From Aurantiochytrium sp. KH105 (Eukaryota; Sar; Bigyra; Thraustochytrida; Thraustochytriidae): 64,000 nucleotides of DNA. The notes beneath the pieces were generated by a model. The model did not search any database. It saw nothing but the letters and a program-made list of their open reading frames with translations, and had not been told where the DNA came from. Position 1 is the stretch's first letter. Each line of letters begins with the position of its first letter. The translations under genes and the position numbers were made by a program. This document shows, one piece after another, positions 47,309 to 61,079 of the stretch. The stretch is from contig BGKB01000175.1 of the NCBI GenBank assembly GCA_003116975.1, forward strand, positions 1 to 64,000, given 5' to 3'.

Positions 47309-48131
47309 CTTGCCCAATGACGCTTTCCTTTAGTGATACGTTTTCCTTTCTTCTTTTCAAGTTGCTAGCAAGAAGAGCCCTGTCGAGCACAGAGTCTCGT
47401 CGTGGTCGTGGGGCTCGCTCGCCGAGCTCGAGCTCGGGCCGATCGAATACCCGAGGGTAAGTGCACGAGTCCCCAAGTTCGCGTTTCTCCAGGCAAGACC
47501 CGCACGTGCGCGCGCCGCGCCTGGCCTCGAGACGGGCCGCCCGCCGCACGGCCTCGTTCGCGTCGCGCGCGTCGGCTGCGCTCGCCTTCCCGGTCTGTCT
47601 CTGAGCCGATCGGGCCTGCGCGCAGCCCGAACACGCTCGCAGTCGCTCGCTCGCTCGCTTGCAAACTCTTGCGGTTTCGGGTCGTGGGTCTCGTCGCGCG
47701 CGTCGCGGAATCGGGCGTTTCGAAACGGCGGTACTCGCAACCGCCAGGTCTAACGGGGGAAACCGCCGGGTAGGCCTCTTCGCCTAACGACCGCGCGGGC
47801 TCGGCGCGAGCGAGGCAGAATCGAAACAGAGCGCGCTGCGCACGAGCGAGCGGCGAGCGGCGCGCGCGGAGACGGCTGCGAGCGGGGCGCGCACGCGGGA
47901 GGGAGCGGGGGAGAGCGGCCGCAAATCGCCGCGGGTTTCCACGCGCGCGCGGCCTTCGCAGCGCGGCGTCGGCGCCGGGCCTGACGCGAGGATCGGGGCC
48001 TCCATCCTCGACACCGCGACGTCCGTCAACTCTTGCCGGGCGACGGCCGAACGGCGAGCGGAACCCCACGCACGCACCGCGCGCGCACGTCTTGCGCGCG
48101 TACAAAGAAAGCCGCGGCAGAGACGAGCACC
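47309..48131. promoter_or_regulatory. Shared upstream region of the CBS-TPR and RPA32 genes
   Basis: 823 bases between two divergent start codons, extremely GC-rich from 47500 to 48070 (CpG-dense, with TCGCTCGC words). Long open frames here are composition artefacts. The stretch next to RPA32 ends GACGAGCACC just before ATG. Confidence 0.5.
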
Positions 48132-49073
48132 ATGAGCGGCTATGGCGACTACGGTGATGCCGGAGGTTACGGCGGGGGCGGCGACTACGGCGGCGGCTAC
48201 GGCGGCGGCGGCGGCGGTGGCGGCTACGATGCGTATGGCGGCTTCGGCGACGGCGGCGCTGCAAACGGCGGCGGATTCATGAACGACGGGAACGGGAACA
48301 GCCAAGGATCCCCGACCTCGAAGCGCACCAAGGTGGAATACATGGTGCCAGTGACGATCCGGCAGATGATCGAGGCTAACGAACAGCCAGAGGCCGGCTT
48401 TATGATTGATGGAAGACTCGTGCAGAAAGTCTCGTGCGTGGGAAAGATCATGAACACGAACAAGAAGTCAGCCAGCTTTGAGCTGGAAATCGAAGACTCG
48501 ACCGGCAACTTTACTGTGCAAAAGTGGCTCCAGAACGATGAAGAAGAGATCCCAGACTTCCCTCTCGGCTCCATGGTCATGGTCTATGGCACACTGCGTA
48601 CATTCAATGGCAAGAGGAACCTGAGCTGTTTTGCGGTGCGTCCTATCGACGACCAGAACATCATGACGCACCATTTTCTCGAGGCCATGATGGCGCACCT
48701 TCAGGTCACGCAGGGACCCGTGAACGCGGACCTGCGCGCTTCGCAGCAAACTGCGATGCAGACCTCGAGTGCCATGGACTCGGGCTACGATCAGCCCGGC
48801 GTAAATCCTGCGCAGGCACTCACAAGTGCGAATGTCAACCAGGGTGGTGCGGATGGCGACCTTGCTTCCAAAGCCTTGCGCATTTTCAACGCGCCCGAAG
48901 CAGCAGAACTTGAGGAAGGCTATACCCCTGAGGAGGTTCTTGGGATCATGAATCAGCAGGGCTCCGCTGTTACCCTGCAGCAAATCATGGAAGCCATTCA
49001 CGGTCTGACCAACGAAGGCCATCTGTATTCGACCATTGACGACAACCACTACAAGTCGACTGGAGAGGGCTAA
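48132..49073 (+). CDS. RPA2: Replication protein A 32-kDa subunit
   Basis: 313 residues from ATG at 48132, chosen because it has a good context and because the preceding open codons look non-coding. The first about 45 residues are a Gly/Tyr-rich repeat (GYGDYGD, GGGYGGGG). Residues about 65-175 form the OB-fold domain D, with VPVTIRQM, GKIMNTNKKSASFELEIEDSTG and FNGKRNLSCFAVRPI. The C-terminal winged helix is at about 255-310 (GYTPEEVLGIMN, GLTNEGHLYSTIDDNHYKST). RPA2 is the middle subunit of the heterotrimer that coats single-stranded DNA during replication and repair; its winged helix docks repair proteins. The N-terminus differs from the short Ser/Thr phosphorylation tail found in animals and yeast. 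Single exon. Confidence 0.94.
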   Translation: MSGYGDYGDAGGYGGGGDYGGGYGGGGGGGGYDAYGGFGDGGAANGGGFMNDGNGNSQGSPTSKRTKVEYMVPVTIRQMIEANEQPEAGFMIDGRLVQKVSCVGKIMNTNKKSASFELEIEDSTGNFTVQKWLQNDEEEIPDFPLGSMVMVYGTLRTFNGKRNLSCFAVRPIDDQNIMTHHFLEAMMAHLQVTQGPVNADLRASQQTAMQTSSAMDSGYDQPGVNPAQALTSANVNQGGADGDLASKALRIFNAPEAAELEEGYTPEEVLGIMNQQGSAVTLQQIMEAIHGLTNEGHLYSTIDDNHYKSTGEG

Positions 49074-59390: not shown

Positions 59391-61079
59391 TTAGTCATCT
59401 CCAGTGCCAAGCTTGCGCCGCTTGGCGGCCGATGCCGGGCTGAAAAAGGACTCGATTCTTGCTTGACGAGAGGTGGATGGACGCGGAGAGGACACCGCCT
59501 CGCTTGAGCCGACAGCCTTGACAGCAATTCGACGAAACTCAGAGAGTTTGTCTTTGATCTTGTGCGTGTTGACATTCTTGGGCCTGATCTTTCCAAAGAT
59601 CGCAGTTTCGCCTTGGGGTTTGTCGAAAAGACCAAGACACCATCCGAGGCCGGCGTAGCTCGGCGGAGACAGTCCATCAAGTGCAAATTTATCATTGAGA
59701 TGAACGAGCTTCTGCATTGCATCCTCGGGACCGCGGGACCATGCGATGATCGCTCTGCCCCAGAACATGCGGCAGTTGTTATGAAGCTCGCCGGTCATCT
59801 CCAGAAAAGTCTGCATTTCGTTCCACACGCGGCTGTCCGTTTGCGCCCTTTCGAGTTCCTCAATTGTATACTCGTGACGTGGGTCCGTCGCGTGAGCGCG
59901 AAGAGTTGTCAGTGCCCACGCAGGTAGAGCTTCGTGCGTGTGCGGAGGCTTTGGCGAGTAGAAGGCATGGTTGTACGAGATCCCCCGCCACTTGTAGAAT
60001 TCGTCGGCGAACTTGGTCTTGCCGTCGCTCGGCGGAAGGGCCTCAATGTCGCGTGCGAGCCGAAAGGGGCTCACCATGCCAAGATTCAGATAGCTTGACA
60101 TTCGCGAACATCCATATGAAAAATGCTGTAGCGGGTCGCCGCGCCGCGCGTGATATGTGGAGAGTCCACACTCTAGGAAACGAGCCCATCGGCTATACCC
60201 ATGCGAGCCACCTCCTCGGGCAACGTGGGGCACAGGCTTTACGGTCTGGTCCGCGCCTTGATGATTTTTTGCAAAGGCAACGATACTAAGCTGCTGAAGG
60301 TCTGCGGCCGAAAGCACATCTGGCTGAGGGATCGAAGAATTGGCGAGTCCCATGAGCTCTTTTACGTGCAGCTTCGCGGCGTCTGTGTCATCATTCTCTG
60401 TGTTTGCAAAGGGCCGAATGTCTTGAGCAGGTTTCCAACACGCAAAAGCTGCGTGACTTTCGCGAATCAAATTTCTGCGCAATTGGGCGACCGCCCGCTC
60501 AAAATGGAATGCGCGCTCGTAGTGGCGTCGTCCCCTCGCTGCTGGGACAAGACATGAAGCATCGACTTGCCAAAATTGACCAAGACTTGCTGACCGGAGC
60601 TGCGCGACAACGTCGACAAAGGGAGCCACAAACGGTTCGTCGGTGACAACGAGGTGCGCCTTTGCGGCGAGCGAGAGGTGCGCTTTGCGGCGACGACCGG
60701 GACTTGTGACCAAGGCAAAAACACGTACTTTTGCGTTTGTATTGCGTTCGATCTCAAGAGCCATTTCCTTGATACCTTCAAGGGTGAAAGCGAGTCTGCG
60801 GGCGGTAAAGTGTTTGGTACTATCAAGCACGGGGGCGACGACGAGCAGCGGCAAGTCCAGAGCCTGCGCTGCGAGTCCAGCCGTAAGCAGCGCCGGATTC
60901 TCGTGCCCACGAAGAGCTACGACAGGCACATAGAGAACAAAGTTGCCTCGATGCGAGCGTTGCTTTGTCGAAGGCGCGCGCTCTTTGATCCTGTCATTGA
61001 GGAAAGGGGCGGTCGTCTGCACCTTTGCGCGCAGGTCTTGCTCGTTCTTGTCCCGAAGCTGAGCCGCGGATCCCGCCAT
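59391..61079 (-). CDS. Class II-like photolyase/cryptochrome with C-terminal PIP box
   Basis: 562 residues from ATG at 61079; the frame continues upstream but opens with GTG, not ATG. The alpha/beta antenna domain (about 45-215) and helical FAD domain (about 270-510) show class II-type features: RRLAFTLEGIKEM, FWQVDASCLVPAA, a TIEELERAQTDSRVWNEMQ block, LNDKFALDGLSPPSYAGLGW and FGKIRPKN. Class II enzymes repair UV-induced pyrimidine dimers using blue light. Several otherwise conserved positions differ, so a signalling or altered role cannot be excluded. The C-terminal tail (about 515-562) is disordered and carries QARIESFF (residues 539-546), a perfect match to the PCNA-interacting Qxx[ILM]xx[FY][FY] motif, followed by a basic AKRRK patch (possible nuclear signal). 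Divergent from the WD-repeat gene. Confidence 0.88.
   Translation of the reverse strand: MAGSAAQLRDKNEQDLRAKVQTTAPFLNDRIKERAPSTKQRSHRGNFVLYVPVVALRGHENPALLTAGLAAQALDLPLLVVAPVLDSTKHFTARRLAFTLEGIKEMALEIERNTNAKVRVFALVTSPGRRRKAHLSLAAKAHLVVTDEPFVAPFVDVVAQLRSASLGQFWQVDASCLVPAARGRRHYERAFHFERAVAQLRRNLIRESHAAFACWKPAQDIRPFANTENDDTDAAKLHVKELMGLANSSIPQPDVLSAADLQQLSIVAFAKNHQGADQTVKPVPHVARGGGSHGYSRWARFLECGLSTYHARRGDPLQHFSYGCSRMSSYLNLGMVSPFRLARDIEALPPSDGKTKFADEFYKWRGISYNHAFYSPKPPHTHEALPAWALTTLRAHATDPRHEYTIEELERAQTDSRVWNEMQTFLEMTGELHNNCRMFWGRAIIAWSRGPEDAMQKLVHLNDKFALDGLSPPSYAGLGWCLGLFDKPQGETAIFGKIRPKNVNTHKIKDKLSEFRRIAVKAVGSSEAVSSPRPSTSRQARIESFFSPASAAKRRKLGTGDD
59442..59465 (-). other. PIP-box motif (QARIESFF) in the photolyase tail
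   Basis: Eight codons coding Gln-Ala-Arg-Ile-Glu-Ser-Phe-Phe. Gln at position 1, Ile at 4 and Phe at 7 and 8 satisfy the canonical PCNA-interacting peptide. It sits 16 residues from the C-terminus in a Ser/Pro-rich, probably disordered tail, with lysines and arginines 7-11 residues downstream, an arrangement common to PIP-box proteins. Confidence 0.8.

Follow-up and report, generated by a model that had tools for sequence, protein, structure and literature searches.

A candidate PCNA-binding PIP box in the predicted disordered tail of a divergent class II-like photolyase from Aurantiochytrium sp. KH105

Photolyases are commonly portrayed as enzymes that scan DNA on their own, and ALKBH2 is a direct-reversal repair enzyme. 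The PIP box has the consensus Q-x-x-h-x-x-a-a, in which the Gln docks, as do residues h4, a7, and a8, and it binds with micromolar affinity, which increases where other parts of the protein contribute, as in FEN1 (PMC6116012, available sections). Another PCNA-binding motif, APIM, is named after ALKBH2 (PMC6116012, available sections). ALKBH2 is a precedent for PCNA-bound direct reversal and uses the same PCNA pocket as is proposed below for a photolyase-like protein, though it is a different enzyme with a different PCNA motif (APIM, not a PIP box). For class II CPD photolyases, the contacts named for the CPD are R164, R256, N257, E301, W305, M379, and W421, while D428 and R441 are strictly conserved, R429 is replaceable, and position 431 is mostly Trp, then Phe or His (PMC6126647, available sections). 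The initial annotation of the locus described here knew of no photolyase with a PIP box, and none was found in the open-access literature, a scope outside which most subscription papers lie. No photolyase PIP box is described in the available parts of PMC4592254, PMC7776575, and PMC3820547, and PCNA is unmentioned in the main text of two family surveys (PMC9498864; PMC4564169).

The photolyase-like gene lies in a window of 64,000 nucleotides, the whole stretch of DNA that was analyzed (Table 1). Its product comprises an N-terminal Rossmann-type domain and a C-terminal helical FAD domain (bounds approximate), and the core is followed by a 36-aa tail alone. An AlphaFold2 model run on a 51-row alignment has a mean pLDDT of 87.6 and a pTM of 0.88, with pLDDT of at least 90 at 388 of the 562 residues and weaker blocks (pLDDT 66-75) at aa 211-250. 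Within the tail, pLDDT is below 50 at aa 527-543, 545-547, and 555-562, and the motif is predicted to sit in an accessible disordered tail behind a mostly confident core. PIP boxes form a 3-10 helix; the short low-confidence helix modelled at aa 538-545 is given little weight here. The claim that this tail holds a canonical PIP box followed by a basic patch was borne out, as QARIESFF matches all four fixed positions of the consensus (defined as in the available sections of PMC6116012) and is followed by KRRK, which ends six residues short of the C-terminus.

Table 1. Positions of the photolyase-like gene, its parts, and two neighboring genes in the window.
Feature	Position	Strand	Description and basis
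Photolyase-like gene	59391..61079	-	562 aa + stop, one open frame (ATG at 61079, stop at 59391-59393); TIGR00591 E 2.2e-64; PDB class II fold
Photolyase core, aa 31-526	59502..60989	-	AlphaFold2 model; domain bounds approximate
C-terminal tail, aa 527-562	59394..59501	-	Predicted disordered (pLDDT)
Putative PIP box QARIESFF, aa 539-546	59442..59465	-	Sequence; consensus per PMC6116012 (available sections)
Basic patch KRRK, aa 553-556	59412..59423	-	Sequence; NLS-like, downstream of the PIP box; putative NLS role
Ankyrin/TRAF giant ORF, 2488 aa	50816..58282	-	Many TRAF-type zinc fingers and ankyrin repeats
RPA32 homologue	47985..49070	+	OB fold and RPA_C domain

The enzyme had been called class II-like, a description that stands at the superfamily level (TIGR00591 and class II PDB folds) but does not place it with the organism's ordinary class II enzyme, as the core is a divergent branch. 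Class II photolyases give the best PDB fold matches (4cdn, E 2.1e-28), and Pfam gave no match for the protein at E 0.01. On TIGR00591 it scores 218.5 bits, below the curated cut-off of 550 bits. However, the genome's own canonical class II photolyase, with 511.8 bits, misses this cut-off as well, so the cut-off does not decide the class, and the low score was dropped as a sign of divergence. The protein is filed as class II-like because of its position in a rapidly built 112-row tree, midpoint-rooted and supported by SH-aLRT only. There, the window protein and its second copy group with 21 fusion proteins and a shorter ORF, L110, at an SH-aLRT of 100. The branch of the window protein measures 2.24 changes per column, and the genome's own canonical class II enzyme is placed elsewhere.

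These nearest relatives are bacterial; the ORFs span 735-958 residues and begin with a class II-like photolyase, which makes up their first half. An amine oxidase domain (PF01593) occupies the second half of both ORFs scanned (L107, E 4.2e-21; L025, E 1.9e-22), and the remaining ORFs were identified as fusions by having over 200 residues of C-terminal extension. One source of the fusions is a Planctomyces record; the others are genomes belonging to the same phyla as L025 and L030. When matches at E up to 1e-40 are counted, ordinary class II included, they occur in 46 of 200 genomes from the phylum of L030 and in 24 of 294 from that of L025. The 21 bacterial fusions have a branch of their own (L025, L104, L107-L109, L111, L113-L118, L120-L126, L131, and L134), and no paper on a photolyase-amine oxidase fusion was found in the open-access literature. 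With 32-37% in BLASTP over most of the core and ~39-47% over the FAD-domain half, they are the closest relatives of the core. The window protein differs from them in having no amine oxidase domain C-terminal to the core, in bearing the PIP/NLS-like tail instead, and in having Gln at the W431 position, where the fusions have Phe (20/21) or His (1/21). With the class II CPD photolyases of Methanosarcina mazei (MmCPDII) and of plants (3umv) it has the fold, the redox Trp chain, and most lesion-site residues in common, at 24-27% identity to class II CPD photolyases among the structural matches listed. In contrast to MmCPDII and 3umv, it has an insertion near aa 191-215, the C-terminal PIP tail, and changed equivalents of N257, R429, and W431.

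For the residue comparison, M. mazei numbering was mapped by alignment (chain index minus 18, whereupon W305 and W421 fall on tryptophans), and the R164 column, which is poorly aligned, was left out. The equivalents of R256, E301, W305, W360, M379, W381, W388, N403, W421, D428, and R441 are kept; in the numbering of the window protein, kept residues include W419, M438, W440, W447, W480, D486, and R499. W360, W381, and W388, which we take to be the redox Trp chain, correspond to W419, W440, and W447, and the role of N403 is presumed in the same way. The bubble-binding residues D428 and R441 are kept as D486 and R499, with Q489 in place of the aromatic residue at 431. The lesion or bubble residues that differ are N257 (G314), R429 (K487), and W431 (Q489). 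Gln at 431 occurs in 0/110 other rows, Gly at N257 in 7/89 other non-fusion rows, and Arg at W305 in 62/89 non-fusion rows. The changes at the N257, R429, and W431 equivalents may weaken or alter lesion binding. With the redox tryptophans and the majority of lesion-site residues retained and three lesion or bubble residues changed, CPD repair by the window protein is likely, and the protein probably functions as a photolyase whose bubble-binding region is altered. Given the divergent class II-like branch and the changes in the lesion and bubble region, dimer reversal is itself a step that we infer.

PCNA is encoded in the same genome by a pair of loci (E 1.7e-84 to the PCNA of PDB 1axc), and its connecting-loop stretch LMDLEQEQLAIP and C-terminal YYLAPK are both intact. 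With the residues that form the PIP pocket assigned on the assumption that they are those of human PCNA, this PCNA is orthodox in sequence and its PIP pocket intact. Three of the organism's own repair proteins, identified by their PDB matches as FEN1 (1.7e-100), UNG (2.7e-74), and Msh3 (5.5e-66), carry a canonical PIP box near a terminus, as does the photolyase-like protein with its putative box, though none of them is a photolyase. In both haplotypes, the C-terminal QSRLETFF of FEN1 begins 44 residues before the end, and QASLKAFF and QQVLSKYF lie near the N-termini of UNG and MSH3, respectively. The FEN1 box is the nearest, having Q, R, E, F, and F in common with QARIESFF, and in both proteins the box is followed by one residue and a proline (QARIESFF-SP and QSRLETFF-KP). 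No PIP match was found in an XPG-family ORF whose C-terminal end is in view (L011, L012) or in the other XPG_I ORFs of the genome (L013-L019; most such client ORFs are partial). The same holds for the partly covered ORFs of the ligase family (L139-L144), of a second UDG-family pair (L137, L138), and of two MutS-family pairs (L145-L148). Several of these client-family ORFs are cut at a sequence edge or perhaps by introns, and most are not clean negatives. Not every client family of the organism shows a PIP box, which counts against reading the tail as one.

We nonetheless consider it probable, judging from sequence, that the tail contains a functional PIP box, that the basic patch serves nuclear import, and that the enzyme docks on PCNA near replicated or gap-filled DNA. 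The motif, its place in a tail predicted to be disordered, the PIP code of the organism's other repair proteins, an orthodox PCNA, and an intact redox Trp chain are what the sequence shows; from these we infer binding, nuclear import, and repair at the fork as follows. The enzyme would be imported into the nucleus through KRRK. Its flexible tail would then enter the hydrophobic pocket of PCNA beneath the inter-domain connecting loop, as that of FEN1 does; Gln539 would occupy the Q pocket, and Ile542, Phe545, and Phe546 would fill the hydrophobic one. The core would thereby be kept close to DNA that has just been replicated or gap-filled and would there flip out pyrimidine dimers and split them using light.

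Among the photolyase family, the motif was sought in the same genome and beyond. Three other family members were found in the genome, a canonical class II (L003/L004), a DASH-type cryptochrome (L153/L154, of which the copy L153 exceeds the NCBIfam cut-off), and a class I-type gene (L151/L152), and none of these has even a loose PIP motif. The strict motif occurs in the last 60 residues of 0/85 relatives scanned, a set that includes the two own-genome class II copies and some fragments; a looser motif used in the same scan gave the match QAYVDRWL in L076. Across 110 relatives (51,913 residues, with fusions trimmed to the photolyase part), there is one strict match, and it lies within the core of L065. 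By these sequence comparisons, the PIP motif belongs to this gene and not to the photolyase family. PCNA is also present in archaea, and 16 of the 80 genome-contig relatives are archaeal by their record titles. The euryarchaeal class II photolyases L080, L100, and L103 (two of them from Poseidonia) have a common C-terminal tail, LGSGPxxYSxxQ, with no PIP box. Viral contigs, queried with the window protein, with alignments headed by it, and with the canonical class II alignment, yielded one matching contig (L021 = L155), a class II fragment without a PIP box. Phages gave no match to the photolyase-like protein, and seven plasmid records match; the two of these that were examined (L005 and L006) contain no PIP box. 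A PDB search with the tail returned one unrelated chain only (9mg8, E 0.13), and when the 25-aa tail was used to search the organism's genome, the photolyase-like gene and its second copy were the sole matches.

The second copy lies on contig C23 and has 97% amino acid identity, the same flanks, and an identical QARIESFF; the DNA of the two loci is 94.9% identical over a 4.7 kb alignment. The PCNA, UNG, FEN1, and other photolyase genes are likewise paired in this assembly of 76 Mb and 367 contigs, which suggests that the assembly is diploid and retains both haplotypes. Most genes searched in the genome occur as near-identical pairs. Because genes come in pairs, the two photolyase-like copies are read as haplotypes rather than as independent orthologues, and the C23 copy, which looks like the other haplotype, is not independent evidence that the motif is conserved. 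The copies differ at 42 codons, 16 of which change the residue, and from these raw codon counts the gene looks to be under constraint. Codons 502-559 show no difference at all between the haplotypes, synonymous differences included, so the haplotypes are uninformative on selection in the tail. Their identity was rejected as proof of such selection, as a longer unchanged run (124-192) sits in the core.

The tail might instead be a variable nuclear-import tail in which QARIESFF arose by accident within a disordered stretch rich in Ser, Ala, and Arg, with no PCNA binding in the cell. Short motifs do arise in this way. When the strict pattern used in all scans, Q..[ILMV]..[FY][FY], was applied to 36 loci of the organism's own genome (140,495 ORF residues), it gave nine matches; six of these are the FEN1, UNG, and MSH3 boxes, each in both haplotypes, and three look accidental (QDVLGIFY once and QTLIFEYY in both haplotypes). 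The comparison of the tail is also limited to the two haplotypes of one genome, which leaves room for such an accident. If ~10,000 genes are assumed, roughly ten C-terminal strict motifs would be expected genome-wide by chance; since the whole genome would yield some C-terminal matches in this manner, the motif alone is no proof. For a single protein, however, the expectation in the last 60 residues is only ~0.001-0.002, at ~0.001 per 60-residue C-terminal end from shuffled window ORFs (1.95e-5 strict matches per residue) and 0.0018 from the composition of the photolyase-like protein itself. In the window, QARIESFF is the one strict match in 81,926 six-frame residues (ORFs of at least 60 aa). 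Shuffling the 58-aa tail produced the strict motif in just 34 of 200,000 trials, and shuffling the whole 562-aa protein did so in 385 of 20,000. The close likeness of QARIESFF to the organism's own FEN1 box and the fit of a PIP box to a DNA-repair-type enzyme also argue against an accident, which we regard as quite unlikely. A proline two residues after FF tells against a Rev1-interacting (RIR) motif; QARIESFF has a proline at this position, and that reading was set aside.

A further alternative overlaps the preferred clamp-docking reading as regards PCNA binding and departs from it in the function of the core, which would be no usual CPD photolyase, acting at the clamp on another photolesion or on ssDNA or serving as a cryptochrome-like sensor. 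The long branch (2.24 changes per column), the replacement of W431 by a Gln found in 0/110 other rows together with R429 to Lys and N257 to Gly, and the availability of a second, canonical class II enzyme for ordinary CPD repair all speak for such a core. The kept redox Trp chain and the kept equivalents of E301, W305, M379, W421, D428, and R441 speak against it, as does the class II fold. In addition, R429 is replaceable (PMC6126647, available sections), and Gly at N257 is also found in 7/89 other non-fusion rows. On balance, a core of this kind seems rather doubtful, if less so than an accidental motif. The box could also act as a PCNA-dependent degron of the CRL4-Cdt2 type, leading to destruction in S phase or after damage instead of recruitment. 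This idea draws on the nearest published link between the family and PCNA, the degradation of mammalian CRY1, a photolyase relative, by CRL4-CDT2 with PCNA (PMC4592254, available sections). In such degrons, positions 5-6 are Thr-Asp and +4 is basic (K/R) (PMC6116012, available sections), whereas the motif here has Glu-Ser at 5-6 and Ser at +4. A degron is therefore highly improbable, and this reading was rejected.

A wider account, which we put forward tentatively as being close to an even chance, is that a divergent photolyase of bacterial type was acquired by a eukaryote and gained a tail for nuclear import and clamp docking. Alongside FEN1, UNG, and MSH3, it would act on daughter strands or gap-filled DNA, while the ordinary class II enzyme would serve the rest of the genome. 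If the clamp does recruit the photolyase, light-driven direct reversal would be coupled to replication or gap filling, and the direct-reversal enzymes working with PCNA would gain a light-driven member. The clamp-docking idea is a simple, testable model, with one tail peptide, one clamp, and one lesion, and the unusual core suggests that class II-like photolyases include a separate branch.

An RPA32 homologue had been noted nearby, with no functional link claimed from its position, and both statements agree with the neighborhood as analyzed. The homologue is present (Table 1), and the genes between or beside it and the photolyase-like gene show no shared pathway, being those for a hexapeptide acyltransferase, the ankyrin/TRAF giant protein, and an ORF with a below-cut-off WD40 match.
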